A DNA stretch of 63,224 nt from Bacillota bacterium (GTDB taxonomy: Bacteria; Bacillota; JADQBR01): contig JADQBR010000045.1 of assembly GCA_016278515.1 (NCBI GenBank), positions 1-63,224 on the forward strand. The letters are read 5' to 3'. Below the pieces are notes generated by a model. The model did not search any database, had not been told where the DNA came from, and was given only the letters and a program-made list of their open reading frames with translations. Below are positions 986 through 62,786 of the stretch, piece by piece. Each line of letters starts with the position of its first letter. Position 1 is the stretch's first letter. The position numbers were made by a program, and so were the translations under genes.

Positions 986-1077
986 TCAATAATTAAAGTA
1001 AGTCTAATTGGAAACTTAGCAACATAAGACTATAAAGATTACGTAAAAAGCATAACAATCTTAAAAACCAAATAAAT

Positions 1078-1167: not shown

Positions 1168-1174
1168 TATTCTT

Positions 1175-19701: not shown

Positions 19702-19716
19702 CCCTTTATCCCATTG

Positions 19717-19833
19717 TTTCTCTTTTGCCTAGCGAGCAGGTATGAAAGTTTCCTATCATACCCCGTGGGCTCTTGGCCCAGGCCACGTTCCGTAAGTCAG
19801 GTCTGACTATTAGGCTGCATGGCTTCAGAGAAA
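19717..19833 (-). promoter_or_regulatory. Probable molybdenum cofactor (Moco) riboswitch
   Basis: The minus-strand leader folds into a multi-stem RNA: outer TTTCTCT/AGAGAAA, inner GCCTA/TAGGC, a hairpin AGTCA/TGACT, a GGGC/GCCC hairpin, and a hairpin GGTATGA...TCATACC capped by a GAAA-type loop. Such a layout with a GNRA-capped arm near the 3' side, just before a cofactor synthesis gene and with a terminator following, matches the Moco RNA motif as I know it. The presence of the AGTCA hairpin would favour Moco over the tungsten-cofactor variant. Assignment is by fold and context, not by a covariance search. Confidence 0.68.
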
Positions 19834-20168
19834 AATATTTAATTTTTTAAGTATACATTATCATCTAGAACAATGGTATTACCTATTTATTATTTACACA
19901 TTTTTATTAAAATTCCTGTCAATTTTTAAAAAAATGCACTATTGTTTATATCACCCCTAAAAATAGATGGTTCTCACCTGCCACATTATACCATATGTTA
20001 GTGAAAAATAGTCTAAAGAAAACCTAAAGAAACTTGGCTTTGCCGTAGAAGCACTAATTTAAGCCTTTTCAGAATTAATTACACCTTAGAGAAGGTTTTT
20101 ACGGCTAAAAAGCAGTATACTAGTTATAAAAAGATTAATACATATCTATCATTTAAGGGGGACTTAAT

Positions 20169-35855: not shown

Positions 35856-37187
35856 CTACACGAAAAACCAAATAATGAAAAGTAATGTAAGTATCCACAT
35901 TGTTGTACTTACCTCTTTCCCTTTACCAGTAAAGAGATGCAGCAGACTGTAAGCCAATGTCCCGAAAATAATTCCATCAGCTATGCTGTAGGCAAATGGC
36001 ATCATAACAATAGCGAAAAATGCCGGGATCGCTTCTAAATAATCAGTGAAATCAATCTTCATCACAGGCTCCATCATGAAGATACCTACGATAATTAATA
36101 TCGGTGCAGTAGCAGCCCCTGGCACAATACCGATAAGCGGTGAAAAGAAAATAGCCACTAAGAACAGCATTGCTGTTGTGACAGCTGTTAAACCAGTCCG
36201 CCCGCCTTCTGCGACACCCGAGGCGCTTTCCACGTAGGTAGTGGTGGTACTGGTACCAAGGATAGCTCCAGCTGTGGTTGCTACAGCATCAGCAGTTAAG
36301 GCTTTATTAGCATTGGGTAATCTGCCGTCTTTATCGAGCATACCCGCTTTGCTGGAGACGCCGATTAATGTGCCAATAGTGTCAAACATGTCTACGAAAG
36401 TGAAGGAAAAAATAACAGGAATTAAGCCGATAGCCAAAAGTTCCTTCAAACCGCCGGCAAACGCACCGAAGGTTGGAGCAAGGCTGGGAGGTGCACTGAC
36501 AATCCCAAAATTTGATATATCAGTCACTCCCATGGGAATACCGATAATGGTGGTCCCAATAATACCTATTAGAAGTGCGCCTCTAACCTTTAAAATCACT
36601 AAAACGGCAGTAAGTATCAGTCCAATCGCAGTAAGAAGCACCGCTGTTTCCTTAAAATTACCTAGCGATACTAATGTATCCGGGTTAGCTACAACAATAC
36701 CTGAGTTATGAAACCCTATCAGCGCTATGAAAAGGCCGATACCAGCACTAACGGCCATCTTAAGGCTCATGGGAATTGCATCCACTATTGCTTGACGAAT
36801 GCTGGTAAATGTCAACACTAAAAAGATTATACCGTTCATAAACACTGCTGCTAATGCAACTTCCCAACTATATCCCATTTGCCCTACTACAGTAAAGGCG
36901 AAAAAGGCGTTCAATCCCATTCCGGGAGCCAGCGCAAAGGGGTAGTTTGCATATAGCCCCATAACCAAGGTACCTATGGCAGCTGCCAAACATGTAGCCA
37001 CCAATACTGCCCCAAAGTCCATACCCGTACTGCTCAGTATGTCGGGATTAACAAAAATTATATATGCCATGGTCATAAATGTGGTCAGCCCTGCTAGTAT
37101 TTCCGTCCGGGCATCCGTACCATGCTCGGACAACTTAAATACCCTTTCCAAAAACCCTTGGTTTGCCGTTGAAACTGTCTTTGACAT
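35856..37187 (-). CDS. NCS2 family purine permease (AzgA/PbuG type)
   Basis: A 443-residue membrane permease with about 12-14 helices for adenine, guanine or hypoxanthine. It begins FLERVFKLSEHGTDARTEILAGLTTFMTMAYIIFVNP (residues about 12-48), the AzgA-branch signature, and contains ALAPGMGLNAFFAFTVV (about 87-103), FSFTFVDMFDTIGTLIG (about 260-276) and TTTYVESASGVAEGGRTGL (about 315-333). It follows the split hydroxylase genes by 51 bases and is likely cotranscribed. Distinct in branch from the xanthine/uracil-type permease at the end of the island. Confidence 0.93.
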   Translation of the reverse strand: MSKTVSTANQGFLERVFKLSEHGTDARTEILAGLTTFMTMAYIIFVNPDILSSTGMDFGAVLVATCLAAAIGTLVMGLYANYPFALAPGMGLNAFFAFTVVGQMGYSWEVALAAVFMNGIIFLVLTFTSIRQAIVDAIPMSLKMAVSAGIGLFIALIGFHNSGIVVANPDTLVSLGNFKETAVLLTAIGLILTAVLVILKVRGALLIGIIGTTIIGIPMGVTDISNFGIVSAPPSLAPTFGAFAGGLKELLAIGLIPVIFSFTFVDMFDTIGTLIGVSSKAGMLDKDGRLPNANKALTADAVATTAGAILGTSTTTTYVESASGVAEGGRTGLTAVTTAMLFLVAIFFSPLIGIVPGAATAPILIIVGIFMMEPVMKIDFTDYLEAIPAFFAIVMMPFAYSIADGIIFGTLAYSLLHLFTGKGKEVSTTMWILTLLFIIWFFV

Positions 37188-37238: not shown

Positions 37239-38234
37239 TTACTCTTGTTTAGAAACTAATAAGTCCAATACTTTTTCCGGCGTAGCCGGTAAGCTGTTTA
37301 ACCGAATGCCTACTGCATCATAGATAGCGTTTAATATGGCAGGTGCAGTCGGCAGCATGGCTGGTTCCCCGATTCCTTTAGCCCCGTAAGGACCGGTAGG
37401 CTCATCACTTTCAACTATTAGGGGTTCTATTTCAGCCATATCCATTGAGGTGGGAAGCAAGTATTGGCTAAAGTTAGGGTTATTTATCCTCCCTTCGCCC
37501 AAGTTCACCTCTTCCATCAAAGCATAACCGATCCCTTGAGCAACTGCTCCTGCAATTTGCCCTCGTACATTCTGGGGGTTAATAGCCTTACCAACATCGT
37601 GAGAGGCAATAGCTTTAATGATATCTACTTTTCCGGTTTTCGTATCCACCTCCACTTCAACTATCTGGGTACCAAATGCATAGGGCCAGTAAGGTGCTCC
37701 CTGACCTGTGTCCGGGTCAACCTCGGTAGTATGGGTGACAAAAGTTCCTTCTCCCAGCAGCCGCACGCCGCTAAACCTAGCCTGGAAAGCAAGTTCTGCC
37801 ACAGACATTTGCTTTTGGGGATATCCCTTAACAGAAACAACTCCCTTAACCATTTCCAATCCTTCGGGAGTATTGACACCCAAAACAGAGGCTCCGTACT
37901 GTAAAAGTTTTTGTTTTGCCACCCTAACTGCTCGTAAAACAGCATTCCCTGACGCGTATGTTTGCCTGGTCGCTGCAGTTGTCCCCGCATCAGGCGTGCT
38001 ATCGGTGTCTCCAGTAATCAAAGTAATATTTTCGGTACTCACCCCTAACTCTTGGGCAGCAATTTGGATTAATGTGGTATCAGAGCCTTGACCGCAATCC
38101 ACTGCGCCCGTGTGTACCGTAGCTGAACCATCGTCATGGATTTCAACCGTGGCACTGGAAACATCAGGGAAACCGTTTCCATAACCGGTACCATAAATAA
38201 TGGCTGCAATACCTTGACCCCTTTTCTTAGCCAT
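37239..38234 (-). CDS. ndhM: Molybdenum hydroxylase, C-terminal half of the catalytic subunit (NdhM-like)
   Basis: A 331-residue protein equal to the last two domains of a xanthine-dehydrogenase large chain: VDCGQGSDTTLIQIAAQELG (about residues 43-62), GTTAATRQTYASG (about 79-91) and the catalytic-glutamate loop GAKGIGEPAMLPTAPAILNAI (about 285-305). With the upstream NdhL-like protein it makes up 763 residues, the size of an undivided catalytic subunit. The same split and near-identical sizes occur in the selenium-containing nicotinate dehydrogenase of Eubacterium barkeri (ndhFSLM). In this purine context the substrate is probably a purine rather than nicotinate. Its ATG overlaps ndhL by 8 bases with a strong GGGGAGGTG site inside ndhL. 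Confidence 0.88.
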   Translation of the reverse strand: MAKKRGQGIAAIIYGTGYGNGFPDVSSATVEIHDDGSATVHTGAVDCGQGSDTTLIQIAAQELGVSTENITLITGDTDSTPDAGTTAATRQTYASGNAVLRAVRVAKQKLLQYGASVLGVNTPEGLEMVKGVVSVKGYPQKQMSVAELAFQARFSGVRLLGEGTFVTHTTEVDPDTGQGAPYWPYAFGTQIVEVEVDTKTGKVDIIKAIASHDVGKAINPQNVRGQIAGAVAQGIGYALMEEVNLGEGRINNPNFSQYLLPTSMDMAEIEPLIVESDEPTGPYGAKGIGEPAMLPTAPAILNAIYDAVGIRLNSLPATPEKVLDLLVSKQE

Positions 38235-39525
38235 AGCTATTCACCTCCCCTGTCTGGTCATCAATAGTCCAGCCTGCTGCCCGAGCCGCCTGAAGCATCG
38301 TTTCCTTCAAACCGACACTACTACCCAAAAACTGTCCCGTAGCTGTAGTGTCTCCTTCTTCCAACGCATTCCGCCAGCGAATGGTCAATGGATGCATTGC
38401 AAGTTTTTCCGCCATGCGATCCATTTGGCTCTCCATAGCAACCGGCGGCTGGGCGGCACCAAAGCCGCGCATTGCGCCAGCAAAGGGGTTGTTGGTATAG
38501 ACGGCATAAGAATCTATCTCTACGTTGGGACATTTGTAAGGACCTACAGCATGGATGGCTGCTTTGCGTAGTATATTGGGAGCCCAAGAAGCATAGGCCC
38601 CGGTATCGCCGATAATTTTCGCCTTGACTGCAATTAACTGTCCTTTATTATCAACGCCTGTTTTATATGACATAACCATCGGATGCCTTTTACTATGAGC
38701 AGCAAAAGATTCCTTGCGATTTAATATCATCTTGACCGGCCTGCCTGTTTTTAATGCAGCCAATGCTACCAGCGGTTGGAGAGACATATCCTCCCTGCCG
38801 CCGAATGCACCGCCAACGGCAGTACAGACCACCTGTACCCGGTTTTCCGTCCAACCAAGGACCCTGGCTATCTCTACCCTGTCCCAATGTACATACTGAG
38901 TAGCTACATTGATTACCAGGTGGCCCCGTTGGTCTTGATAAGCTAGGGCAGCTTCAGGCTGCAAAAAGGCATGGTCCACCATCTGGGTTCTATATGTGTC
39001 CTCGATTATTACCTGAGACTTTTCGAAACCCTCTTCAACATTTCCCCGGCGAATGGGTAGATGATACAACACGTTCGTCTTTAACTCGGGATGAACATGA
39101 GGCGCATCTTCCTGCATTGCTGTTTCGGGATCAAAGACTGCCGGCAGCACTTCATAATCAACTTTAATTAATTTTGATGCCTTACTAGCAATTTCTTCCG
39201 TATCAGCAACCACTACTGCCAATGCGTCATTTACTGACCGCACCTCTTTATCAGCCAGAACATGCATATCAGTATACAAAACACCTTGGGAGTTTTCTCC
39301 CGGTACATCCTTAGCAGTAACCACTGAACGAACACCCGGCATTTCTTCCGCTTCCCTAACATGCATATCCTTAATACGGGCATGGCCGTGAATACTGCGC
39401 AGCACTTTACCATACAACATATGGGGTCTACTCAAATCAGCGGGGAAGCTGGTTTTTCCTAATAGTTTGCCAACGGCATCTATTCTGGGGGTGGACGCCC
39501 CAACAGCATCATTAGTTTCTTTCAC
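38227..39525 (-). CDS. ndhL: Molybdenum hydroxylase, N-terminal half of the catalytic subunit (NdhL-like)
   Basis: A 432-residue protein equal to the first two domains of the large chain: PRIDAVGKLLGKTSFPADLSRPHMLYGKVLRS (about residues 13-44), AVGGAFGGREDMSLQPLVAL (about 235-254) for cofactor binding, and GAMRGFGAAQPPVAMESQMD (about 355-374), whose Arg corresponds to the substrate-orienting arginine of xanthine oxidase. It stops cleanly at TAA after a linker, where the next gene begins. Start is a GTG inside the end of ndhS. Subunit order F-S-L-M equals that of E. barkeri nicotinate dehydrogenase. Confidence 0.88.
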   Translation of the reverse strand: MKETNDAVGASTPRIDAVGKLLGKTSFPADLSRPHMLYGKVLRSIHGHARIKDMHVREAEEMPGVRSVVTAKDVPGENSQGVLYTDMHVLADKEVRSVNDALAVVVADTEEIASKASKLIKVDYEVLPAVFDPETAMQEDAPHVHPELKTNVLYHLPIRRGNVEEGFEKSQVIIEDTYRTQMVDHAFLQPEAALAYQDQRGHLVINVATQYVHWDRVEIARVLGWTENRVQVVCTAVGGAFGGREDMSLQPLVALAALKTGRPVKMILNRKESFAAHSKRHPMVMSYKTGVDNKGQLIAVKAKIIGDTGAYASWAPNILRKAAIHAVGPYKCPNVEIDSYAVYTNNPFAGAMRGFGAAQPPVAMESQMDRMAEKLAMHPLTIRWRNALEEGDTTATGQFLGSSVGLKETMLQAARAAGWTIDDQTGEVNSYG

Positions 39526-40857: not shown

Positions 40858-40962
40858 ACCTCTTACCCCCTTGCAAAAATGATAATAAATCTCAAAAATA
40901 TTCAGAAAACCAACCTCGCATTTCGGCCTACCTTAAATGCCCATATAAAACCAGGCAAACGT

Positions 40963-41014
40963 AAAAAGCTACCAGAGCGCACTAGAATAATCATTCTAGA
41001 TGCGCCCTCGTAGC
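40963..41014 (-). terminator. Riboswitch-controlled terminator before ndhF
   Basis: On the minus strand GCTAC-AGGGCGCA-CTAGAAT pairs with ATTCTAG-TGCGCTCT-GTAGC with one mismatch and one bulge, a stem of about 20 bp, then TTTTT. Its 5' arm contains the P1 3' strand of the adjacent purine aptamer (41006-41012), so the two folds exclude each other and ligand binding should prevent termination. Confidence 0.92.
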
Positions 41015-41074
41015 TTAGCAATTTACGGTCGCCTGGTAGAAACCCCCGGTCCATATCACCAAGGATATACGAGG
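41006..41074 (-). promoter_or_regulatory. Guanine-class purine riboswitch, predicted ON switch (ndhF operon)
   Basis: The minus strand shows the purine aptamer: P1 CCTCGTA/TACGAGG, P2 CCTTGGT/ACCGGGG with loop GATATGG, the conserved GTTTCTACC, and P3 with loop CCGTAAA, the kissing-loop sequences being those of the B. subtilis xpt aptamer. The base that sets specificity is C (CTA before P1 closes), predicting guanine, hypoxanthine or xanthine rather than adenine. P3 closes less well than usual and the base before the C is G, a small departure from the consensus. The 338-base gap around it holds only this device and AT-rich promoter-like sequence. Confidence 0.93.
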
Positions 41075-41195
41075 TTATTTATATTAATATAGTTATTCGA
41101 CATCTGGTATTGAAATCCTGCCCCAGACTCTTTTTTTTACAATAAAATATTACTGGAAAGTTTGTTTAATTTAAGCAAATTTTATTGCCTCTGCC

Positions 41196-48669: not shown

Positions 48670-49896
48670 TTAATACAAGGGGAATTTAGCACATAATTCT
48701 TTAACCTCTAGAGCCAATTGTTCCTTTTCTTTCTCGAATTCATAAGACAGAGCCCTTTGGATGATATCTCCCACCTGTTGCATTTCTTTCTCTTTAAAAC
48801 CTCTAGTCGTTACGGCGGGACTACCGATACGCACACCGCTGGTAATTGTTGGCGGATTAGGGTCAAAGGGAATGGCATTTTTATTAACTGTAATGCCAAT
48901 TTCTTCAAGTCTTCCCTCTGTTTCTTTACCGGTCAGTTCACGCGGTTGTACATCAACCAGCATGAGGTGATTATCTGTTCCACCCGAAACAAGTTTTAAA
49001 CCGCTTTCCACTAGTTTATCAGCCAGGCTCCGTGCATTTTTGACAACCTGTTGTTGATAGTCTTTGAATTCGGGTTCAAGCGCCTCTTTAAAGGCCACAG
49101 CTTTAGCAGCAATTACATGCATCAAAGGTCCGCCTTGAATACCTGGGAAAATGGCTTTATCTACGGCCTTGGCATATTCTTCCCGGCAGAGAATAATACC
49201 GCCCCTCGGTCCCCTCAGGGTTTTATGTGTTGTAGAAGTTACAAAATCGGCGTAGGGTACTGGGTTAGGATGAAGTCCTGCTGCTACTAGACCGGCGATA
49301 TGTGCCATATCTACCATAAATAGAGCCCCGACTTCATCAGCAATCTCACGAAAGGCGGCAAAATCAATTGTACGCGGGTAAGCACTAGCACCTGCTACTA
49401 TCAGTTTTGGCTGATGGGCCTTGGCCTGATCCCGAACCTCTTCGTAATCAATACACCCTGTCTCTTTTTTAACACCATAAGGAACAAAATTATAGTATTT
49501 TCCTGACATATTAACTGGACTGCCATGGGTCAAGTGCCCGCCATGGGCTAATTTCATGCCTAATACAGTATCTCCAGGATCTAAAATGCTAAAATAAACG
49601 GCCGCATTGGCCTGGGCGCCGGAATGGGGTTGAACGTTCGCATGTTCAGCCCCAAACAATTTCTTCACGCGTTGGCGTGCCAGTTCTTCAGCCACATCCA
49701 CATACTCACACCCGCCATAATAACGTTTCCCAGGGTATCCTTCAGCATATTTGTTTGTTAGAACTGACCCCTGCACCTCCATGACTGCTTTACTGGTAAA
49801 GTTTTCTGACGCAATAAGTTCGATTGTCGTCCGCTGCCTGTTCAATTCCTTATCTAAAACTGCAGCAATTTCCGGATCTACTTTTTTCAATTCCAT
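48670..49896 (-). CDS. glyA: Serine hydroxymethyltransferase
   Basis: PLP enzyme that interconverts glycine plus methylene-tetrahydrofolate and serine. The 408-residue protein shows [10 protein letters not shown] (about residues 26-35), [15 protein letters not shown] (about 55-69), [11 protein letters not shown] (about 91-101) and the PLP lysine in [14 protein letters not shown] (about 221-234). It is 33 bases downstream of an xanthine dehydrogenase subunit gene in the same direction, an unusual location for a housekeeping gene; it would convert purine-derived glycine and C1 units into serine for SdaAB. Confidence 0.97.
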
Positions 49897-49929: not shown

Positions 49930-50439
49930 CTACTCGGTCTGTTTATGGCAGTTACAAGTTCCTTTTTTACTGTGATTAAGGGCTTTATCAGCTGCCTTTG
50001 TAATATTTTGATAACCTGTACAACGGCACAGGTGTCCAGACAATTCTCGCTTTATTTCTTCCTTAGTATATTGTTTATCTTTTGCCGCTAAAGCTGTTGT
50101 GGTCAGCACAAGGCCGGGAGTGCAGAAACCGCATTGAATAGCTCCTTCATCAACAAAAGCTTTTTGTACGCCGGACAGCTCCCCCTTTTCAGATACACCT
50201 TCTATAGTTAGTACACTTTTACCATCAGCCCACACCGCCAAGAAAATACAGGAGTCAATGGGGGTACCATCAATCAAAACGGTACAAGCTCCACACTCAC
50301 CAACACCACATCCCTTTTTAGCCCCTGTGTAACCCAAGCGGTTCCTCAATACTTCCAATAGTGTTTCACCAACGTTAATCTCTATGGTTTCGAGCCTGCC
50401 GTTTACTTTAAAGGAAATCTTTCTAAGCAATTTCTCCAC
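49930..50439 (-). CDS. Xanthine dehydrogenase-type [2Fe-2S] subunit
   Basis: A 169-residue two-cluster subunit: GCGVGECGACTV with a fourth Cys in DSC (about residues 43-66), QCGFCTPGLVL (about 103-113) and CRCTGYQ (about 139-145). It ends with a small CNCHK tail after the usual C-terminus. It overlaps the FAD subunit by 17 bases and belongs to the three-gene hydroxylase. Confidence 0.95.
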   Translation of the reverse strand: MEKLLRKISFKVNGRLETIEINVGETLLEVLRNRLGYTGAKKGCGVGECGACTVLIDGTPIDSCIFLAVWADGKSVLTIEGVSEKGELSGVQKAFVDEGAIQCGFCTPGLVLTTTALAAKDKQYTKEEIKRELSGHLCRCTGYQNITKAADKALNHSKKGTCNCHKQTE

Positions 50440-51316
50440 CTCCTGCTTTGGCTACTGCCACTTTTAACGCCCTTTGAGTTAATTCCTGTACAAGATGTTC
50501 TCGATATTCTTTAGACGCTCTCCAGGAAGTTCTAGCTTTAGCAGCTTTAACCGCGGTCTTACCTATTTCAGCAATGGTTTCTAACGAGATTACCTTTCCT
50601 TTAGCGAAATCCTCCGCCTCTTGACACCTAATGGGGGTCGGCCCAGCAACTCCCAATCCAATCCTCACATCTTCAAAGACATTTTTATCTTTAAGTTTAC
50701 AAACAACCGCAACGCCTAAAGTGGCAATATCCATGGCATTACGCAAACTATATTTAATATAATGGCCGCTAAAGCCAGTATAGTTTTCCGGCGAAATAAG
50801 TATTTCAGTAAGCATTTCTCCGGGCTTTAAAGCTACTTTTCCGGGACCAAGATAAAACTCCTGAATGGGCACCAAACGCTCATTTTGGCTGGATTGCAGC
50901 TTTAAAACAGCATTAAACGCAAATAATGTTGAAGCACTGTCAGCAGAGGTAACTCCGTTGCAAATATTGCCGCCGATGGTTGCAATATTACGAATTTGCG
51001 GCCCGCCCATGGAAGTGGCGGCCTCCGCTAAAATTGGTATATTACCACCAACAACCACATCTACAGCAATGTCTGAAAACGTCCCAAGGGCTCCAATGCT
51101 AATTGTCCCGTCTTGGAGCATTTTAATACCCTCTAAAGATTTAATTTTTCTAATACTTAGTATGTCTGCCTCTTCAATTCTTCCTCCATGCATCTTTACA
51201 AGAACATCAGTGCCGCCAGCAACAATTGTTAAATTAGGCTTTTCTGCCAACAGTCCAGCCGCTTCTTTGATAGTTTCAGCCTCGAAGTAATTCTTAATAT
51301 TGTAAATGATCGCCAC
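50423..51316 (-). CDS. Xanthine dehydrogenase-type FAD subunit
   Basis: A 297-residue CoxM-like FAD subunit with TIVAGGTDVLVKMHGG (about residues 30-45) and IRNIATIGGNICNGVTSADSASTLFAFNA (about 107-135), where TIGGN is the flavin motif. It sits 7 bases after the catalytic-subunit stop, so the order is Moco subunit, FAD, [2Fe-2S], which differs from the F-S-L-M operon. Confidence 0.94.
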   Translation of the reverse strand: MAIIYNIKNYFEAETIKEAAGLLAEKPNLTIVAGGTDVLVKMHGGRIEEADILSIRKIKSLEGIKMLQDGTISIGALGTFSDIAVDVVVGGNIPILAEAATSMGGPQIRNIATIGGNICNGVTSADSASTLFAFNAVLKLQSSQNERLVPIQEFYLGPGKVALKPGEMLTEILISPENYTGFSGHYIKYSLRNAMDIATLGVAVVCKLKDKNVFEDVRIGLGVAGPTPIRCQEAEDFAKGKVISLETIAEIGKTAVKAAKARTSWRASKEYREHLVQELTQRALKVAVAKAGGGEIA

Positions 51317-51323
51317 CCCCTTC

Positions 51324-53612
51324 CTAAATCAAACCGCTTTCCTTAAATTTCTCAAAGACTCGTTGTGGGTACAAAGGCAGTGCCTGAAATGCCACGCCTG
51401 TCGCATCCAATACAGCATTACGAATTGCCGGAGCCGGAGAGATAATAGGTGGCTCCCCCAATGACTTGCTGCCAAACGGTCCTGTCGGGTCAGAGGTTTC
51501 AGCGAATGCCACTCCGATATCCGGAATATCCATTATGGTCGGCAATTTATAATCAAGCAAATTGTTATTTAAAGGCTTTCCTGTTTGGTCAAAAAGCATC
51601 TGTTCCGAGAGAGCATATCCTAACGCCATTCCTACTCCTCCGTGTACCTGGGCTTCTGCCAGCTGAGGGTTGATTATTTTACCGGAGTCATGAACATTAT
51701 ATATTTCTATTACCTCTATTTTCCCAGTTTTCATATCCACTTCAACCTCTACAAAGGTTGCACCGAAAGAAAAAGCATTGATCCTGGCATTGTTGGAAAC
51801 ATCACTGGTAATCGGTTTTGCCAAAGCAGTGTCATAATAAGTTTGCAGTGCCAGATCAGACAATGGCATTATAGTTTCCCCAGACTGTCTATATACTATC
51901 TTTCCATCTTTAATATCTAGAGCTTCGACCGGTAGGTCCGTCATTCCTTGAGCAAAACTAAGAATCTTGTCCTTAACATCCATTGCGGCCTTCCTAACAG
52001 CCATGCCTGAAACATAAGTCTGTCTTGAAGCATATGACCCGGTGTCAAAGGGAGTTATATCCGTATCTTGCGTAGAAATGACATGAACCATGCCTTCAGA
52101 AATCCCCAATACTTCAGCTGCCATCTGACCAAAGACAGTATCACTTCCCTGCCCAATCTCAGTAGCTCCGATTTGCAGCTGCAAAGATGCGTCTTGATTG
52201 AGGATAATCCTTGCCCCGGCTATCTCCAACCCTGCCGGGTAAGTTCCTGAACCATAACTGAAGCAAGCCATTCCCAGTCCTTTACGTTTCATTCCCGATT
52301 GATCCCCATACATTCTCTTTTTATTTTCCCAGTTGATTAGCTCTTCACCCTTCTCAATACATTCGCGAATACCGCAACTGAGCACTTTATTTCTATTTAA
52401 AGGATCTTCATAACCTTTTTTAACATGGTTTTTCTTTCGAAATTCAATGGAATCAATGCCAAGTTTATTTGCTATCTCTTCCAAGTGAGATTCAAGAGCA
52501 AATACTATCTGCGGCGATCCATATCCTCGCATGGCCCCGCCAACAGGGAGATTTGTATATACTGTGACCGGATCAAATTTTATCGCTTCCATCGGATAGA
52601 GCACCCTGAATTTCGAACCGCCGGCCATAGCAATAGAATGACCATGGGATGCATAAGCACCGGTATTGGATATTGCCTCTATATGCATTCCCAGTAAATT
52701 TCCATCTTTAGAAACTCCTGTCTTAATTTTAAACTTTATGGCATGGCGGGTACGAGTATCAATCATGCATTCTTCACGGGACAATTCCAGCTTAACCGGT
52801 CTACCGCCTATGGCTAGAGTCATCAGCGCGTTTAAAGGCTCAATGCAAACGTCCTGCTTACTGCCAAATCCCCCCCCGACATAGGGTTTAATTACGCGTA
52901 TCTTCCCCCAAGACATATCCAAAGCCTGTCCCACAATCCTTCTGACGATATGCGGAATTTGCGTAGACGTGACAATTACAATCCGGTCCTGACTATCTAC
53001 ATAGGAATAAGATATATGATTTTCTAATTGACAGTGCTGTACGATACTTGTCTCATACACACCTTCGAATATATGATCAGCTTCACCTAAAACTCTTTCA
53101 ATATCTCCGAACTGATAGCCTTCGGAAGCAATGATATTTCGCTCGCATTCCTCATGTATCAGCGGTGCATCTTCCTTTAATGCCGCTTCAGACGTTAATA
53201 CTGCTGGCAATACTTCGTATTCTACCTTGATTAAACCTAAAGCCTTTTCAGCGGTCAGTTGATCTGTAGCAACCACCGCAGCCACAGAGTCGCCGACGAA
53301 ACGTGCCTTATCAGTTAAAATATGGCGGTCAGCGCGATCTCGGTGTCCAGGATCCAAGGAATATGGATGCCCTGCAGTAGAATATGGCTTGTCCGGAACA
53401 TCTTTATAAGTCAGCACAGCTTCTACACCGGACAAAGCCTTGGCTTCACTAGCATCTATGCTTTTAACGATGGCATGGGCATGAGGACTTCTCAAAATCT
53501 TACCCACTAGCATGTCTCTTTCAAAAAAATCGTCAGTATACTTTGCTTTCCCTGTAACCTTTGCAACAGCGTCCACTCGCCTTACGCTCTTCCCGACTAC
53601 TTCGTTAGCCAT
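51324..53612 (-). CDS. Xanthine dehydrogenase-type molybdenum catalytic subunit, undivided
   Basis: A 762-residue catalytic subunit. Cofactor and substrate regions: VGGGFGSKQDVCIEP (about residues 243-257), GGAMRGYGSPQIVFALESHLE (about 355-375), ATEIGQGSDTVFGQMAAEVLG (about 480-500), DTGSYASRQTYVSG (about 518-531) and the catalytic-glutamate loop FGSKSLGEPPIISPAPAIRNA (about 714-734). The intact chain is what the NdhL/NdhM pair equals when joined. Whether the molybdenum site carries selenium cannot be told from sequence. Purine hydroxylation is inferred from context. Confidence 0.93.
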   Translation of the reverse strand: MANEVVGKSVRRVDAVAKVTGKAKYTDDFFERDMLVGKILRSPHAHAIVKSIDASEAKALSGVEAVLTYKDVPDKPYSTAGHPYSLDPGHRDRADRHILTDKARFVGDSVAAVVATDQLTAEKALGLIKVEYEVLPAVLTSEAALKEDAPLIHEECERNIIASEGYQFGDIERVLGEADHIFEGVYETSIVQHCQLENHISYSYVDSQDRIVIVTSTQIPHIVRRIVGQALDMSWGKIRVIKPYVGGGFGSKQDVCIEPLNALMTLAIGGRPVKLELSREECMIDTRTRHAIKFKIKTGVSKDGNLLGMHIEAISNTGAYASHGHSIAMAGGSKFRVLYPMEAIKFDPVTVYTNLPVGGAMRGYGSPQIVFALESHLEEIANKLGIDSIEFRKKNHVKKGYEDPLNRNKVLSCGIRECIEKGEELINWENKKRMYGDQSGMKRKGLGMACFSYGSGTYPAGLEIAGARIILNQDASLQLQIGATEIGQGSDTVFGQMAAEVLGISEGMVHVISTQDTDITPFDTGSYASRQTYVSGMAVRKAAMDVKDKILSFAQGMTDLPVEALDIKDGKIVYRQSGETIMPLSDLALQTYYDTALAKPITSDVSNNARINAFSFGATFVEVEVDMKTGKIEVIEIYNVHDSGKIINPQLAEAQVHGGVGMALGYALSEQMLFDQTGKPLNNNLLDYKLPTIMDIPDIGVAFAETSDPTGPFGSKSLGEPPIISPAPAIRNAVLDATGVAFQALPLYPQRVFEKFKESGLI

Positions 53613-53642: not shown

Positions 53643-55031
53643 TTAGAGGTTATCCGAACACTCATTATATGCAGCACTTACACTTTCTGCTTTAACAAAC
53701 CGTCCTTGACCGGCAGTACCAATAAATTCGCCATTGTGATATATTAAGTTGCCTCGAAGAATTGTGGTCTCGGGATACCCCTTCACTTCCTTGCCATCAA
53801 AGGGCGTATACTTAGAAGCCGAATGCAGCTTTCGTCCATCAAGCACAACCCTTTTTCCAGGATCAAAAATCACCAAATCAGCATCACTCCCCGGTTTGAT
53901 GCTTCCCTTTCGCGGGTACAGACCAAAAATCTTTGCCGGGTTAGTAGATAATAGATGCGCTAAATAACACGGATCAAAACGATCTCCGTTTACTCCATAA
54001 TTATATAGCAAGGGTAACATGGTTTCACTACCGGGAATACCTGGAATCGTCGTAAAACAATCCTTACCTAATGCTTTTTGTTCTAAAGTATACGCACAGT
54101 GATCAGTGGCCACTACCTGTAATGTACCGTCAATTATTGACTGCCATAATAAATCTTGGTTACCCTTAGGGCGAAGCGGCGGCGTCATAATATAAGGCCG
54201 AGGGTCCTTTCGGGCATAAAGACTGTCATCCAGCAATAAATAATGAGGACAAGTTTCCCCCAAAACTTTTTGCCCGGCCTTTTGGGCCTCCGCAATTCTC
54301 CTGGCTCCCTGTCCGCTTGACACATGAACAAAATAGATGGGGACTCCCACTCTTCGGGCAGTTTCCAATACACCGCAAATGGCTTGTTCCTCAGCTTTCG
54401 CCGGCCGGCTCTCGCCGTGTCTAGCCGGCGAAATTTCCCCTTTTTCTTCTAAATCAATGTGTATTTTCTCAACCAAGGAATCATCTTCGGCGTGGACAGT
54501 GACCAGCATATTATGAGACGTTACATCGGCCAAGAGTGCTTCCAAATCTTTTTCCGGCAAACGCTGGTTATAAGTGGTAAATATTTTCAGGCTTTCAATT
54601 CCCAATTCTTTCAGGAGTGCCAACTGTGGTTTCATTTTCTCATCCCAACGGTGAATAACCATGTGAACAGTATAGTCAATCAATGCTTTTCCATCAGCTT
54701 CGGCCAGCCGCTGTTTTGCTCCATTAACCAGTGGCTTCCCAGACAAAGGATCGGCATAATCTATGCAGGTTGTCACACCGCCGCAGGCTGCTGAAAGAGT
54801 TCCTTCTTCCCAACCATCTGCAGTAACTGCCCCTTTTGTAACCAAGCCGTAATGGGTATGGGCGTCTATAACGCCTGGGAAAACCAATTTTCCTGCGGCA
54901 TCCAGCACTCTATCAGCCTTATCCGTTGGGAAAACTCCTATTGCTTCGATTCTTCCAGCGCAAACAGCTAGATCAGCCTTAATTAAACCCTTTTCTGTCA
55001 CCAGACTACCATTTTTAATCAACAAATCCAC
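53643..55031 (-). CDS. hyuA: Dihydropyrimidinase/hydantoinase-like cyclic amidohydrolase (YgeZ/HyuA type)
   Basis: Opens cyclic amide or ureide rings. The 462-residue protein shows PGVIDAHTHYGL (about residues 51-62) with the HxH metal pair, the carbamylated-lysine position in SLKIFTTYN (about 145-153), VTVHAED (about 177-183), YFVHVSSGQGA (about 232-242) and the Asp in ATDHCAYT (about 309-316). The GTG start at 55031 is set by AAAGGAGA 7 bases upstream. In a purine island the probable substrate is a pyrimidine or imidazole-type ring intermediate rather than dihydrouracil. Confidence 0.9.
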   Translation of the reverse strand: MDLLIKNGSLVTEKGLIKADLAVCAGRIEAIGVFPTDKADRVLDAAGKLVFPGVIDAHTHYGLVTKGAVTADGWEEGTLSAACGGVTTCIDYADPLSGKPLVNGAKQRLAEADGKALIDYTVHMVIHRWDEKMKPQLALLKELGIESLKIFTTYNQRLPEKDLEALLADVTSHNMLVTVHAEDDSLVEKIHIDLEEKGEISPARHGESRPAKAEEQAICGVLETARRVGVPIYFVHVSSGQGARRIAEAQKAGQKVLGETCPHYLLLDDSLYARKDPRPYIMTPPLRPKGNQDLLWQSIIDGTLQVVATDHCAYTLEQKALGKDCFTTIPGIPGSETMLPLLYNYGVNGDRFDPCYLAHLLSTNPAKIFGLYPRKGSIKPGSDADLVIFDPGKRVVLDGRKLHSASKYTPFDGKEVKGYPETTILRGNLIYHNGEFIGTAGQGRFVKAESVSAAYNECSDNL

Positions 55032-55048
55032 AATGGGCTCTCCTTTCA

Positions 55049-56284
55049 CTACCCTCGTTCGGAAAGGGCCTTTACTAATAAATCCATATCCGGAGGTACC
55101 TTGATAGGTTCACTCACCGCACGAATAGCATTCTGTACGTCTTTTAGACCGTTGCCCGTCACAACAAAAGCAACGCTTTCATCTTGGTCGATAATTCCTT
55201 CCGCTACCGCTTTTTGAATTCCCGCCAATCCGGTCACTCCGGCAGGTTCTCCGAAAACACCGGTTGTGCTGCCTAAAAGACGCATAGCCTCAAGTATCTG
55301 AGTATCGCTAACATTAATCATCGTACCATGAGAGTCTCTGATGGCCCTTAGTGCTTTATCTGGATTACGGGGCACACCGACTGCAATACTATCAGCCAGA
55401 GTATTTTCTTCTGAAGGTCGGATTGGTTCATTATTGACAAATGCTGTTGTAATCGGGCAGCAACCCTCAGCCTGAACCCCCAGCACTTTTGGCAGACGGT
55501 CGATGAAACCGGTTTCGTACAAATCAACCAGGCCCTTCCAAGCACCTCCAATGGTGCACCCGTCTCCGACGGATAACACAATCCAATCGGGAACATGCCA
55601 ATTCAATTGTTCACAAAGCTCCATAGAGACAGTCTTTTTACCCTCAACCATGTACGGATTTATGCCGGCGTTACGATTATACCAACCCCAGCGGTCAATT
55701 GCCTCAGCCGACAGCTTAAAGGCATCCTCATAAGAGCCTTGAACACTAACCACCGTGGCACCAAATACTAATAGCTGGGCTATTTTTCCTTCAGGCGCCC
55801 TGCCGGGAACAAAGATATAACTCTTCAATCCCACCGAGGCTGCATTACCGGCCAGCGATGAAGCTGCATTACCGGTAGACGAACAAGCAATGGTATCGGC
55901 ACCGGTTTCAACTGCTTTAGCCACTGCTACTGCCGAAGCTCTGTCTTTAAGAGATGCAGTAGGATTTAAACCATCATCCTTAACATATAATGTTTTTAGC
56001 CCTATCACATCAGCTAAGCGTTCAGCATTATAGACAGGCGTCCAACCCACTCTTAACGGCGGGATTGTTTCCGGTATTATAGGCATCCAAGGCAAATAGC
56101 GCCACATAGAGTAATTTTGATTGTTTTTAAGTTTTTCTTTTGAAACATTAGCCGAAATAGCTTTGTAATCGTAGATAACATCAAGAATGCCTTCACTGCC
56201 GCAGCTTGGGCAAGTATAACTATCAGGCATCGCCGGATAGGTCTTACCACATTTAAGGCATTCTAAATTTTTTACATAAGACAT
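55049..56284 (-). CDS. Threonine-synthase-like PLP lyase with N-terminal zinc ribbon
   Basis: A 411-residue fold-type II PLP enzyme. Four cysteines, LECLKCG and CPSCG (about residues 8-29), form a small zinc-ribbon. The PLP lysine lies in PTASLKDRAS (about 109-118), the phosphate loop in SSTGNAASS (about 135-143), and a Ser/Gly C-terminal site at VVTGNGLKD (about 383-391). It looks like ThrC, but sits between the fused xanthine dehydrogenase and the hydantoinase, where E. coli and Clostridia carry the diaminopropionate ammonia-lyase YgeX. It may take over that eliminating step; true threonine synthase is the alternative. Confidence 0.82.
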   Translation of the reverse strand: MSYVKNLECLKCGKTYPAMPDSYTCPSCGSEGILDVIYDYKAISANVSKEKLKNNQNYSMWRYLPWMPIIPETIPPLRVGWTPVYNAERLADVIGLKTLYVKDDGLNPTASLKDRASAVAVAKAVETGADTIACSSTGNAASSLAGNAASVGLKSYIFVPGRAPEGKIAQLLVFGATVVSVQGSYEDAFKLSAEAIDRWGWYNRNAGINPYMVEGKKTVSMELCEQLNWHVPDWIVLSVGDGCTIGGAWKGLVDLYETGFIDRLPKVLGVQAEGCCPITTAFVNNEPIRPSEENTLADSIAVGVPRNPDKALRAIRDSHGTMINVSDTQILEAMRLLGSTTGVFGEPAGVTGLAGIQKAVAEGIIDQDESVAFVVTGNGLKDVQNAIRAVSEPIKVPPDMDLLVKALSERG

Positions 56285-56290
56285 CTTTGT

Positions 56291-58855
56291 TCACCTCCTA
56301 TTTCGTTTATACGGTGTATTTTCTAAAGGTAAAGATAACCTTCTTTCACCATCCCAAACGCGATATGCATTGGCCACTGCCGCTGCTGTCGGAATTGTGG
56401 CAATCTCACCAATTCCCTTTGCGCCGTAGGCATACTCCAAGTCGCCGCCTTCATGGATCAACACCTCAATTTTAGGCGTCTCGTTCGCTTTCCAAAGTCC
56501 CAGGGAGGCCATTTTTTGCTGCTTTGGAACACCACGTTCAGTAGCAAAATCTTCCCGCAGAGCATAGCCCAATCCCATGACTACAGCTCCTTCTATTTGA
56601 CCTTCGAGGGAAAGCGGATTTAGTGCCTTACCCACATCATGGGAAGCTAGCACTTTTTCCAACCTACCTTCTTCATTAAGAACCACTACTTGCGTGGCAA
56701 AGCCATAGGCAATATGAGTGATAGGATCTTCTTTTTCACTGGTTAGGCTGTCTGTGACTCCCTCAAATTCCGCATCAAAGTCCATTCCTTCCAATGCTAA
56801 CAAGTTCCCGTCACCCATGGCATCTTTCACTTTCACCGCTGCACGGCGTACAGCTTCCCCGGTAAAGAGGCTTTGACGAGAGGCAGTAGTGGTACCTGAT
56901 GCCGGTGTAGAACCGCTGTCCGCTATACGAATCTCTACTAGTTTAGCCGGCAAACCGGAAGTCTGGCAAAAAATCTGTAATAATGTTACCGCCAGGCCCT
57001 GTCCAATACAGGCTGCCCCTGTTCCAAGAATAACTTTTCCATCTTTAATATCCACTTTCACTCGGCCAACGTCCGGCGTACCTACGCCAAGTCCAATACT
57101 CTTCATTCCGCAGGCAATACCTACATGAGGATTTTCTTTACAAACCTCCCGCACTGCTTCAAGAGTCTTTTTCAAACCTACGTTATTATCAATCTTTTGT
57201 CCCGTAGCCAGCCTATCCCCTGGTTCCAATGCGTTGCGATAGCGAATTTCCCAAGGGTCAATGCCAACAAGTTCCGCCAATTGATCCATTTGACTTTCAT
57301 TGGCAAAAGCAGCTTGGGGCACACCAAAACCCCTAAACGCTCCTGCCGGAGGGTTATTAGTATATATAGCAGACCCCTCAATTTCCAGATTATCTATTTT
57401 ATAAGGTCCAGTTGCGTGGGTGCAGGCTCTTTCAAGTACTTGGGCACCCATGGATGCGTAAGCACCGGTATCTGCAAGTATCCGTGCCTTTAGTCCCGTC
57501 AATCTTCCGTCGGCATCCACCCCGGTTGTCATTTCAATCTTCATGGCGTGTCTTTTCGGATGTACCATAAGACTCTCCCGGCGACTGAGTGTTAACTTGA
57601 CCGGCCGTTTAGTCTTCCATGCCAGCAGCGCCGCATGATGTTGAACGCTTAAATCTTCTTTTCCACCGAAAGCGCCTCCCACGAAACAATTGACAACTCT
57701 CAGTTTCTCAGGCTCAATATTAAGAATTTCCGCAGCCTGATGTTGATCCTCAAAAACGCTTTGTGTACCGACATAAATTGTCATCTCTTGGTCCTTTGGT
57801 ACCGCAACAGCACTTTCCGGTTCTAAGAATGCGTGCTCAGTGAATGGAACCTCATAAGTACAACTTACCAGATGAGCAGAATCATTAAGAGCAGTCTCAA
57901 CGTCTCCACGTTTTAAACTGGTAGTGCTTAAAATGTTTCCTTTCGGGTGGAGTGCAGGAGCACCCTCTTTAATTGCAGACTCTACGTCAGTAACAGGCTC
58001 AAGTTCTTTGTATGCCATTTTAATTGCCTGTACTGCCATTGCAGCAGCTTCCGGCGTCTCGGCAGCCACTAATGCAAGAGCATCCCCCACATAATGCGTC
58101 TCACAACCCACCTCAATTAGAGTAGGCCAATCCTTAAATATTAGGCCATGATTACGGCTGCCGGGAATGTCTTTAGCAGTTAAAACAGCTGCCACACCCG
58201 GCATCTTCTCTGCTTCTGAAATGTCTATGGAAATTATCTTTGCTCTGGCGGCCGGGCTTCTTAATACAGCGCCATAAAGCATATTTGGAAAGGACAAGTC
58301 ATCGGCAAAGACTGCTTTTCCGGCAGTTTTTTCATAAGCATCCCGGCGTGGGTACCGTTCGCCTATCCGTGGCTCCGGCAATGGGCCAAACTTCTCTTCT
58401 CCGCGCATAGCGCGCCCTGTCAGCTCTACCGCATCAATTATTTTTTGATAACCGGTACAGCGGCAAAGGTTTTTGCGTAGATTCTTAGCTATTTCTTCCC
58501 GGGTCGGACTGGGATTCTGATCCAAAATTCCTTTGGCGGAAATAACCATGCCGGGCGTACAGAAACCGCATTGAACTGCGCCTGCTCTGGCAAACGCCTC
58601 AGTATAGATTGTAAGTTCCTCTGCTTCAATGCCCTCAACTGTCACAACCGGTTTATCTCCAAGTTTCTTAAGAGAAAGACTGCATGATTGACGTGTCTTT
58701 CCGTCAACTAGCACCATACAGGCACCGCAGACGCCCTCATTACAGCCATTCTTAACAGAAGTAATTTTTAAATGCTGTCTCAACACGGTCAATAAAGTGG
58801 TTTCAGGACTGACATCAAGTTCAAACTGCTGGTTATTTACATTTACGGACACCAT
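56291..58855 (-). CDS. Selenium-dependent-type xanthine dehydrogenase, fused [2Fe-2S]-Moco chain (XdhD-like)
   Basis: An 854-residue single chain: two [2Fe-2S] clusters at the N-terminus (GCNEGVCGACMV and QSC, about residues 38-61; QCGFCTPGM and CRCTGYQ, about 97-140), then a full catalytic part with CFVGGAFGGKEDLSVQHHAAL (about 395-415), PAGAFRGFGVPQAAF (about 511-525), GTTTASRQSLFTGEAV (about 645-660) and GAKGIGEIATIPTAAAV (about 814-830). Size and fusion match the family annotated as selenium-dependent xanthine dehydrogenase and E. coli XdhD. No FAD subunit is attached, so another protein such as YgfK may accept the electrons. First gene behind the second purine riboswitch. Confidence 0.92.
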   Translation of the reverse strand: MVSVNVNNQQFELDVSPETTLLTVLRQHLKITSVKNGCNEGVCGACMVLVDGKTRQSCSLSLKKLGDKPVVTVEGIEAEELTIYTEAFARAGAVQCGFCTPGMVISAKGILDQNPSPTREEIAKNLRKNLCRCTGYQKIIDAVELTGRAMRGEEKFGPLPEPRIGERYPRRDAYEKTAGKAVFADDLSFPNMLYGAVLRSPAARAKIISIDISEAEKMPGVAAVLTAKDIPGSRNHGLIFKDWPTLIEVGCETHYVGDALALVAAETPEAAAMAVQAIKMAYKELEPVTDVESAIKEGAPALHPKGNILSTTSLKRGDVETALNDSAHLVSCTYEVPFTEHAFLEPESAVAVPKDQEMTIYVGTQSVFEDQHQAAEILNIEPEKLRVVNCFVGGAFGGKEDLSVQHHAALLAWKTKRPVKLTLSRRESLMVHPKRHAMKIEMTTGVDADGRLTGLKARILADTGAYASMGAQVLERACTHATGPYKIDNLEIEGSAIYTNNPPAGAFRGFGVPQAAFANESQMDQLAELVGIDPWEIRYRNALEPGDRLATGQKIDNNVGLKKTLEAVREVCKENPHVGIACGMKSIGLGVGTPDVGRVKVDIKDGKVILGTGAACIGQGLAVTLLQIFCQTSGLPAKLVEIRIADSGSTPASGTTTASRQSLFTGEAVRRAAVKVKDAMGDGNLLALEGMDFDAEFEGVTDSLTSEKEDPITHIAYGFATQVVVLNEEGRLEKVLASHDVGKALNPLSLEGQIEGAVVMGLGYALREDFATERGVPKQQKMASLGLWKANETPKIEVLIHEGGDLEYAYGAKGIGEIATIPTAAAVANAYRVWDGERRLSLPLENTPYKRNRR

Positions 58856-58962: not shown

Positions 58963-59014
58963 AAATAAAATGCCCGACTAAAACCAGGAGTCCCCTCCAA
59001 GTTCGTAGTCGGGC
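58963..59014 (-). terminator. Riboswitch-controlled terminator before the fused xanthine dehydrogenase
   Basis: On the minus strand GCCCGACT pairs with AGTCGGGC, extended by AAC.TGGAG/CTCC.GGTT with one mismatch, followed by ATTTTATTT. The 5' arm contains the P3 and P1 3' strands of the purine aptamer, so termination and ligand binding exclude each other. Confidence 0.92.
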
Positions 59015-59068
59015 AATTTCCGGTTGCCTGGTAGAAACTCCCACACCGTATTTGCAGGGATATACGAA
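59002..59068 (-). promoter_or_regulatory. Guanine-class purine riboswitch, predicted ON switch (fused XDH operon)
   Basis: Minus-strand aptamer: P1 TTCGTA/TACGAA, P2 CCC(T)GCA/TGTGGG with loop AATACGG, conserved GTTTCTACC, P3 GGCAA/TTGCC with loop CCGGAAA, and ACTAC before P1 closes. The specificity base is C, so guanine, hypoxanthine or xanthine is expected as ligand. Sequence differs from the other copy in stems but keeps the core. The 300-base gap around it contains only this element and AT-rich sequence with a TTGAAA box near 59120. Confidence 0.94.
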
Positions 59069-59155: not shown

Positions 59156-60520
59156 TTAGCCTCTACGGTTTTTAATTTTTTTATTATATTCCTCCGTTAA
59201 AGCATATTCTTTCTCCCAAAATTCCGGATCTTTCATGCTGTCAAGGTATTCTTGGCTGTAACCGAAAGGCAGCCAATCTTGCTCCTTTTGCTTAAAAAGC
59301 TGTTCCTTAACATCCGCTCTCCGGTAATCATAAACATCTTGATCGTCGGCCTTAAGGAAAATATCATTTGCCCAGCGTTTTAATACTTCATCAGAAAGCT
59401 CTAATTCTCGACATTCTAGATCTTCCAGGACGGAAGGATACCGATCAAAACCATCTGTGGCGACGGTAACAACGTTATCGTCAGGTCCAAGACGTAAATG
59501 TTTGGCCATCTTAATAGCACCGAGGATATTACAAATACCGGAAACCCCAAACAAGTTCTTCATACTTTCAGCTACTTCTCTCTTAACTCCCATGCTCACT
59601 AATGTTTCAGTACCATCTTGAATTAATTTCAGACCCTTAACAGTGTCATCATCAGGAATTAAAGTGACAAAATCAGTGGTCAGGAGATTATGAATTAATG
59701 TACACATCTTATCTCCAATTCCTTCGATGCGGTGTTGTCCGCGACCGCCGTTAGCCAACGTGGAACATTCATAAGGCTCAAGGGCTGTAATCTTAGCCTC
59801 AGGGAAGGCCTTCTTAATCTCATCTCCAGCTGAAATAGTGCCGGCGGATCCTGGAGCAGAAGTAAAACAGGCTATTCTTCCGTTACCAATGCCCTTTACG
59901 GCTTCAATTGCCGAATTCCCGGTCACATAACGGTGGAAACGGTAGTTAGGCATTAGTTCGAACTGGGCCAGAGGTTTATTCTTAGGATCCTTCTTCAGTT
60001 CATAGGTCCTTTGCAGTGTTAAAATAACATCAGATTCGGTGCCAGGCGTTAAATCCAGCTCTGCTCCGTACTTCTGAATGCGTTCGTATCGTTCTTTGCT
60101 CATGTTGTCCGGCATAATAACAACAGCTTTATAGCCCATTAGGTTACAAATGTAAGAAACACCAATGCCAAAGTTACCCGTTGACGGCCCTAAGATAGTA
60201 TGTTCACCCGGTACAATATCTCCATCCACACAACCTTCGATCAATGTTGCATACGCCGGCCCAACCTTATGAGAACCGGAGGGAAAATAAGTACCCAACA
60301 TAACCACAATATTAGCGTCTACTCCTGTCAATTCCTTTGGAAGAACTATTTTTCTTACTTGGTTCTCTTCATCCTTCCACGTAATGTTAAAAAGGTTTAT
60401 GGCATCAAGCTCATTTTCCTTTAAAGCCTTAACAGCTTTTTCTCTTACCTCCGGATCAATCCTTTCCGGATAAAGCATTTCTTCATAGGTCGGCCCGAAA
60501 GGCACTTTTACATCTGACAT
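59156..60520 (-). CDS. Cysteine-synthase-like PLP-dependent enzyme
   Basis: A 454-residue fold-type II PLP protein. The PLP lysine is in YFPSGSHKVGPAYA (about residues 76-89), the phosphate-binding loop is GPSTGNFGIGVSY (about 110-122), and the distal phosphate-contact region is SAPGSAGTISAGDEI (about 219-233). It is about 130-150 residues longer than CysK, with an N-terminal lead and a C-terminal extension (about 360-454) rich in charged residues. I do not know a characterised member. Together with the ThrC-like gene it is one of two candidates for an ammonia-lyase or C-N lyase step in purine-nitrogen release. It has its own start region, upstream of the riboswitch. Confidence 0.78.
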   Translation of the reverse strand: MSDVKVPFGPTYEEMLYPERIDPEVREKAVKALKENELDAINLFNITWKDEENQVRKIVLPKELTGVDANIVVMLGTYFPSGSHKVGPAYATLIEGCVDGDIVPGEHTILGPSTGNFGIGVSYICNLMGYKAVVIMPDNMSKERYERIQKYGAELDLTPGTESDVILTLQRTYELKKDPKNKPLAQFELMPNYRFHRYVTGNSAIEAVKGIGNGRIACFTSAPGSAGTISAGDEIKKAFPEAKITALEPYECSTLANGGRGQHRIEGIGDKMCTLIHNLLTTDFVTLIPDDDTVKGLKLIQDGTETLVSMGVKREVAESMKNLFGVSGICNILGAIKMAKHLRLGPDDNVVTVATDGFDRYPSVLEDLECRELELSDEVLKRWANDIFLKADDQDVYDYRRADVKEQLFKQKEQDWLPFGYSQEYLDSMKDPEFWEKEYALTEEYNKKIKNRRG

Positions 60521-61442: not shown

Positions 61443-62786
61443 ATGGAAATTGAAAAGCAAGGTATATCTCAAGGTTTTATTACCCCAGTGTACGATGTTG
61501 AAGACAAACCACCACTTAAAGAAGCGGTCCCTTTAGGCCTTCAACACGTACTAGCAATGTTTGCCGGAAATATTACTGTTCCAATTATTATCGCGGGCGC
61601 TCTAGGATTAGGGACAGGAGAGACTGGTTTTCTTATCCAAATGGCCATGTTCGTCGCTGGTCTGGCAACACTTTTACAGACCATCTCTATAGGTCGTGTC
61701 GGAGGCAAGCTTCCTATTGTGATGGGTACAAGTTTCGGTTTTGTACCGACGTCTATCGCCATTGGCGGCCAATTTGGTATAGCAGGCATCCTGGGTGCTT
61801 CTTTTGTTGCCGGGTGGTTCGAAGTAGTTTTGGGTTATTTTTTGAAGCCTCTTCGCAAATGGTTTCCCCCGTTAGTGACGGGAACAGTGGTTTTAACAAT
61901 CGGTTTATCTCTCCTGCCGGTTGGTATAAATTATGCCGCCGGTGGCGTAGGGGCTGAGGATTTCGGCGCATTTCATAATCTATTTTTAGCAGGTTTAGTG
62001 TTAATAATCACCGTTGTTTTAAACCAATATGGAAAAGGCATTTGGAGTCAGGCATCTATTCTGATAGGAATGATAGTTGGTTATTTGATAGCTATTCCAA
62101 TGGGATTAGTAAGCTTTGCCAGTGTAGCATCTGCTTCTTGGTTTGAGTTTCCTAGACCGTTTGCTTTTGGCATGGAATTTCATCTTTCAGCGATTTTCGC
62201 CATGCTTATCCTTTATATTGTAACCACAGTAGAGACTGTTGGTGACATCTCCGGTATCACCATGGGAGGTGCGGGGCGTGAAGCAACGGACCGCGAGCTC
62301 TCCGGTGGAGTAATGGCAGACGGTGTAGGAAGCATTTTTGCTGCAGTTTTCAACGCACTTCCTAACACTTCTTTCAGTCAAAACGTTGGATTAGTTTCGT
62401 TTACTGGTGTCATGAGCCGCTATGTTGTCAGCATCGGCGCTCTCTTTCTAGTAGCTGCCGGCTTTATACCAAAGCTTGGTGCTGTTTTAGCAGTTATGCC
62501 TCAAGCTGTTCTGGGTGGGGGCGCAATCATCATGTTTGCTACTATTGCAACTTCCGGCATAGTACTTATCAGTAGTTCGGACCTTAACAGACGTAATCTT
62601 TTGGTGGTGGCAGTATCCCTAGGACTCGGTTTAGGGTTAGGCCAGGTCCCGGATGCTTTACAATACCTTCCGAATTCTGTTAATTTAATTTTTAGTGGTT
62701 CCGGAATTACAGTTAGCTGTCTTGTTGCTCTTTTATTAAATTCGGTTTTACCAAAGGAAACCTCAAAATCAGTAAATGATGCGTAA
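61443..62786 (+). CDS. NCS2 family xanthine/uracil-type permease
   Basis: A 447-residue permease with about 14 helices, of the UraA/PbuX/UacT branch. PLGLQHVLAMFAGNITVPIII (about residues 31-51) is the helix-1 signature, GTSFGFVPTSIAIGG (about 95-109) the third-helix site, VETVGDISGITMGGAGREATDRELSGGVMADG (about 262-293) the substrate-binding helix 8 with its Glu, and NTSFSQNVGLVSFTGVMSR (about 306-324) the helix-10 motif. AAAGGGGGAAAATTAA precedes the ATG. Likely substrate is xanthine, urate or uracil; the setting favours xanthine or urate. Confidence 0.93.
   Translation: MEIEKQGISQGFITPVYDVEDKPPLKEAVPLGLQHVLAMFAGNITVPIIIAGALGLGTGETGFLIQMAMFVAGLATLLQTISIGRVGGKLPIVMGTSFGFVPTSIAIGGQFGIAGILGASFVAGWFEVVLGYFLKPLRKWFPPLVTGTVVLTIGLSLLPVGINYAAGGVGAEDFGAFHNLFLAGLVLIITVVLNQYGKGIWSQASILIGMIVGYLIAIPMGLVSFASVASASWFEFPRPFAFGMEFHLSAIFAMLILYIVTTVETVGDISGITMGGAGREATDRELSGGVMADGVGSIFAAVFNALPNTSFSQNVGLVSFTGVMSRYVVSIGALFLVAAGFIPKLGAVLAVMPQAVLGGGAIIMFATIATSGIVLISSSDLNRRNLLVVAVSLGLGLGLGQVPDALQYLPNSVNLIFSGSGITVSCLVALLLNSVLPKETSKSVNDA

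Follow-up and report, generated by a model that had tools for sequence, protein, structure and literature searches.

A guanine-class riboswitch with ON architecture ahead of a purine-oxidation gene cluster in a Bacillota bacterium

A close series of purine-oxidation genes lies on the minus strand of the 63,224-nucleotide contig analyzed here (JADQBR010000045.1, hereafter the window), and the leader ahead of it, at 59 kb, raises the question of whether an RNA switches these genes and in which direction. The initial annotation had proposed a second guanine-type aptamer with stem sequences of its own at 58963-59068, a span that opens at the first P1 base (59068) and closes where a U tract ends (58963). 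A purine riboswitch match does lie there on the minus strand (RF00167 in Rfam, 59087-58986, 68.6 bits against a gathering threshold of 37, E = 5.8e-10), and its aptamer shares 67% identity over 78 nt with the copy at 41 kb, which equals the mean of all sampled pairs. Using RF00167, our own covariance model R1 (73.9 bits) and the pocket residues in the alignment, we placed the core of this purine (guanine-type) aptamer at 59072-58995 (minus strand), with P1 at 59068-59063/59007-59002, P2 at 59059-59053/59045-59039, P3 at 59030-59024/59016-59010 and the pocket residue C74 at 59008.

Alignment columns place the guanine pocket residues U22, U47, U51 and C74 in both the 59 kb and the 41 kb aptamers, and this pocket, together with the aptamer fold, is the likeness to guanine-I (RF00167, as in xpt). 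The adenine riboswitch of B. subtilis pbuE activates expression, its ligand disrupting a terminator that overlaps the aptamer. The 59 kb element appears to share this terminator disruption and differs in having C74, where the adenine class has U and binds adenine. Among relatives of the guanine class, ON logic has been predicted for guanine-II, the guanosine/2'-dG variant and some members of xanthine-II (PMC9295807). Xanthine-II, a guanine-class variant, is associated with genes for dioxygenase, allantoinase and xanthine dehydrogenase, and it is marked by U51G together with insertions in J2-3 and J3-1 (PMC9295807). The 59 kb aptamer, in contrast, keeps U51, its J2-3 is GUUUCUAC and its J3-1 is AC. 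Guanine-II senses guanine and is predicted to be ON (PMC9295807), as we predict for the 59 kb switch, but it has a one-nucleotide J2-3 insertion and precedes mostly phosphoribosyltransferase genes, while the 78 nt of the 59 kb core match model positions 1-78 with no insertion. The guanosine/2'-dG variant, which precedes a gene for a purine nucleoside hydrolase and is predicted to be ON, resembles the 59 kb switch in its logic and differs in its nucleoside ligand and, by description, its pocket (PMC9295807). Judged by sequence, the 59 kb element belongs to the guanine class of riboswitches and has an ON architecture; its ligand and direction of control we infer.

The aptamer has irregularities, namely a six-pair P1, one mismatch in P3 and two loop positions off the consensus (AAUACGG and CCGGAAA), which could suggest that the aptamer has decayed or that the leader now acts as a constitutive attenuator, blind to ligand. 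We consider this very unlikely, as the pocket is intact, the L2 sequence AAUACGG is also present in other sampled purine aptamers and the G in L3 is shared by 18 of the 48 ON-type aptamers.

The direction of control is suggested by the expression platform. A terminator hairpin predicted by folding at 58971-59015 (minus strand, 10 contiguous pairs) overlaps the aptamer: its 5' arm, UGCCCGACUA (59015-59006), is made of the P3 3' strand, J3-1 and the first P1 3' bases, and its 3' arm, UAGUCGGGCA (58980-58971), is separated from it by an inner hairpin and followed by an interrupted U tract, UUUUAUUU (58963-58970). A terminator 5' arm built from aptamer strands is what is expected of a transcriptional ON riboswitch, and the overlap claimed in the initial annotation holds up in both statistics, with a leader fold of z = -4.7 and a Watson-Crick helix of at least 10 pairs between the aptamer 3' half and the 80 nt that follow it in only 7 of 2000 dinucleotide shuffles. 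An earlier, alternative terminator may exist at 58980-59032 (minus strand), where ACCAGG (59032-59027) could pair with CCUGGU (58988-58983) ahead of U bases, and our leader comparison found it to resemble the CCTGG-T-run arm of many other ON-type leaders.

Because aptamer and terminator are mutually exclusive, ligand binding should permit read-through. Guanine-I switches commonly lower expression and stand before synthesis, salvage and uptake genes (PMC9295807), unlike the 59 kb switch with its ON architecture and purine-oxidation genes, and a third copy in this genome looks OFF; an OFF switch at 59 kb, in which the ligand promotes termination, is nevertheless highly improbable, since the sole terminator-like site found by a consensus scan of the leader's strand sits inside the hairpin that uses aptamer strands, and in leaders of the OFF class the whole terminator is located beyond P1.

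Very probably, the 59 kb element is an ON riboswitch that works through transcription termination, has a canonical guanine-I aptamer and induces a purine-oxidation operon. RNA polymerase would make the aptamer first, and guanine (hypoxanthine and xanthine less tightly) would bind at once and lock P1 and P3. With the 3' strands of P3 and P1 tied up, the terminator would be blocked and the operon transcribed, switching on the xanthine dehydrogenase, the PLP enzyme, the hydantoinase, XdhABC and probably GlyA; with no ligand, the far more stable terminator would take these strands and stop transcription ahead of the first gene. Forcing the aptamer costs 1.8 kcal/mol with P1 just complete, 8.0 kcal/mol at 10 nt past P1 and 2.8 at 20 nt, and it rises to about 18-19 kcal/mol at 31-40 nt, by which point the terminator arm has been transcribed. 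We infer a kinetic decision that leaves the ligand some 20-30 nt of transcription in which to bind.

The same ON device could respond in the cell to xanthine or hypoxanthine, the enzyme substrates, instead of guanine. The preference of guanine-I aptamers for guanine over hypoxanthine and xanthine is reported to be no more than about 10-fold (PMC9295807), and one C. difficile purine riboswitch has been reported as specific for xanthine (PMC11477304); on the other side, the pocket here is that of the guanine class and the marks of xanthine-II (U51G and the insertions) are absent, so we give this ligand assignment an appreciable but less than even chance.

The downstream genes had been named correctly in the initial annotation, from the fused xanthine dehydrogenase to glyA, as family matches confirm. 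The first gene after the switch encodes a fused (FeS and Mo) xanthine dehydrogenase (56291-58855, minus strand like all genes of this series; TIGR03311, 1230 bits, cut-off 830) of a family whose name suggests selenium dependence. It is followed by a threonine-synthase-like PLP-dependent enzyme (55049-56284; TIGR00260, 217.6 bits, cut-off 167.1; PF00291), for which gene context suggests a YgeX-like role, and by a HyuA-like D-hydantoinase/dihydropyrimidinase (53643-55049; TIGR02033, 434.7 bits, over its cut-off). A three-gene xanthine dehydrogenase, xdhABC, comes next (49930-53612; xdhA 53612-51324, xdhB 51316-50423, xdhC 50439-49930; NF043082, NF043083 and NF043084, each over its cut-off), and then glyA, encoding serine hydroxymethyltransferase (48670-49896; NF000586, 665.9 bits). 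The series is close-packed, with gaps of at most 33 nt, the last being that between xdhC and glyA, and then 295 nt to a GntR regulator gene; glyA is likely to be the last gene of the operon, to judge from this spacing. Beyond glyA lie genes for YgeY, a carbamoyltransferase, carbamate kinase and YgfK, and then the 41 kb switch. The gene cluster resembles the reductive uric-acid pathway, which biochemical work established in E. coli (PMC12507026); riboswitches did not turn up in a term search of that paper. Two genes of the xanthine/uracil permease family flank the purine cluster, at 61443-62786 (plus strand) and 35856-37187 (minus strand).

A gene for a PLP-enzyme homologue (59156-60520, same strand) ends about 70 nt before the 59 kb leader, and a consensus scan found no sigma-70-like promoter just upstream of the leader on the minus strand; the 41 kb copy likewise lies about 100 nt after ygfK with no promoter-like site in the gap by the same type of scan. 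The 59 kb element might then be an intra-operon attenuator with no promoter of its own, acting on read-through from the upstream gene, which would be compatible with ON logic. We hold this only tentatively, as the scan covered sigma-70-like sites and other promoter types would be missed.

The switch at 41 kb, a purine aptamer with an overlapping terminator that ends in CCUGG-UUUU (40947-41092, minus strand), has the same ON wiring, as had been claimed. RF00167 matches at 41092-40991 with 75.3 bits, model R1 places the core at 41077-41000, and an xdhB-like FAD subunit gene follows (40857-39988). The longest single helix of this terminator has 7 pairs and is unremarkable alone (372 of 2000 shuffles), but the whole leader fold is unusual (z = -8.5), and the cost of forcing the aptamer stays at 3-4 kcal/mol as far as 35 nt, then reaches 12.8 kcal/mol by 40 nt. 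The Mo subunit that comes after (37239-39525, minus strand) is split into overlapping frames, 39525-38227 and 38234-37239, and may be a real two-gene subunit or a frameshift. Nicotinate dehydrogenase has a two-gene Mo subunit, and in several ON-controlled relatives, too, the first Mo frame spans about 430 codons.

The only other matches in the window at Rfam gathering thresholds are a TPP riboswitch near the window start (1071-1180, plus strand) and a molybdenum-cofactor riboswitch (19704-19842, minus strand) ahead of the gene at 19690-17813; a ykkC-like (PRPP) aptamer is absent from the window's four matches. Elsewhere in the genome, a third purine switch (L001, C67:3297-3399) precedes a purE-like gene and has a downstream terminator that does not overlap the aptamer, so that it looks OFF-type, and the genome seems to hold both logics. 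L001 is followed by a stretch that resembles a PRPP aptamer, and a similar leader is found in both genomes of the same family (L004 and L005); a ykkC-type aptamer reaches the Rfam gathering threshold in L004 and not in L001. A guanine aptamer of the kind known from tandem guanine/PRPP arrangements seems present before purE in this genome. Tandem arrangements of this kind are OFF with guanine and pair it with a PRPP aptamer (PMC9481103), whereas no such second aptamer was reported for the 59 kb leader at gathering threshold.

Comparison with related genomes, which the initial annotation had proposed, shows that ON-type purine switches recur before xanthine-dehydrogenase-type genes. Of 398 genomes of the phylum, 170 have an RF00167 match; the matches listed come from 38 genomes picked for their xanthine-dehydrogenase matches, so carriers of such genes are over-represented among the 148 distinct leaders obtained from these genomes and the window. 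We clustered the downstream genes with BLAST and took their names from reading representative sequences, not from family scans. A leader was called ON when its terminator uses aptamer strands, by a script that went through several versions: an early one admitted long spurious hairpins, spotted at matches before GuaA, GuaB, Xpt and permease genes, which led to a stricter basal-stem rule, and an interim pairing rule was dropped since it failed on most ON-type leaders. As hairpins were inspected alongside the downstream genes, the classifier was revised with gene identity in view. The gene was also known when leaders were reset by reading, five to ON (L078, L084, L102 and, as weak cases, L107 and L126) and four to unclear (L146, L149 before GuaA, L160 and L174); two leaders have no call.

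Scripted counts for the 35 leaders before xanthine-dehydrogenase-type subunits gave 27 ON, 7 OFF and 1 with none, against 2 ON (L149 before GuaA and L174 before PurL) and 36 OFF for the 38 before synthesis or salvage genes. After hand edits, the former became 31 ON (4 of them added by hand) and 4 OFF, and the latter (Pur, GuaA, GuaB and Xpt genes) 0 ON, 36 OFF and 2 unclear. The difference is large under either count; Fisher's test on the hand-edited counts gives p = 4e-16, or 2e-7 without the over-sampled family f14, values that ignore relatedness and are only descriptive, given the non-blind reading and the related genomes. ON leaders precede xanthine-dehydrogenase-type genes in families f1 (that of the source genome), f4, f14, f34, f35, f42 and f74, and an amidohydrolase gene in f101, while the four OFF cases (L093, L096, L097 and L159) all precede FAD subunits that look YgfM-like. 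Terminator arms track changes in P3, in examples judged by eye (AGGCAA with UUGCCU, AGGUGA with UCACCU). In an extra batch of 20 leaders outside these counts, L224 and L215 have overlapping terminators and suggest ON switches before an amidohydrolase and an FtcD-like gene, which are further candidates for purine breakdown; L210, L212 and L214 suggest the same before permeases.

Two copies with the same logic had been taken as independently diverged and as a sign of separate selection, and here the tree points the other way. The tree of the 148 aptamers has few columns and a large number of long branches, which makes it weak in detail. On it, 4 changes of the ON label suffice, where shuffled labels take about 40, and the figures are 7 and 38 when the terminator-constrained columns of P1 and P3 are left out. 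Since ON aptamers cluster in this way, and the window copies group with ON-type aptamers of other families and are up to 81% identical to ON-type copies elsewhere, one or few origins of the ON logic are suggested, and the two copies are more likely to have diverged within a single ON lineage than to have arisen separately. A model built from ON-type aptamers gave no clean separation of ON from OFF in a genome search.

ON wiring recurs before other genes of the xanthine-dehydrogenase type, but no Rfam family reached its gathering threshold in 30 Se_dep_XDH loci of other genomes (with 1.5 kb flanks) or in one Fusobacterium locus, so the pairing of switch and this enzyme is seen only at the window locus. 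A xanthine dehydrogenase search of genome contigs returned a single relative, from Fusobacterium mortiferum, and the order- and class-level searches spanned three genomes. We lean slightly toward a broader reading, in which a sublineage of canonical guanine-I switches with reversed logic is widespread in the phylum, lets substrates induce anaerobic purine catabolism (xanthine dehydrogenases, transporters and amidohydrolases) and has moved between families with the operons.

A search confined to open-licence papers returned no report of ON-type switches with canonical guanine aptamers ahead of genes for purine oxidation. If the ON reading is true, one aptamer type would serve opposite logics in one genome with no change of its pocket, and guanine would close purine synthesis and open purine breakdown. 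Anaerobic degradation of uric acid and purines by bacteria bears on gout (PMC12507026), and the control of such gene clusters would become directly testable.

The surveyed leaders also vary in detail. In family f14 (L081, L113, L130, L137 and others), many ON-type aptamers have an L2 that is one nucleotide short, and in several L3 is short as well. In the purK and purC leaders L208, L209, L211, L222 and L223, the J2-3 sequence UCUCUACC complements GGUAGAGA of a downstream terminator, possibly a different switching strand.
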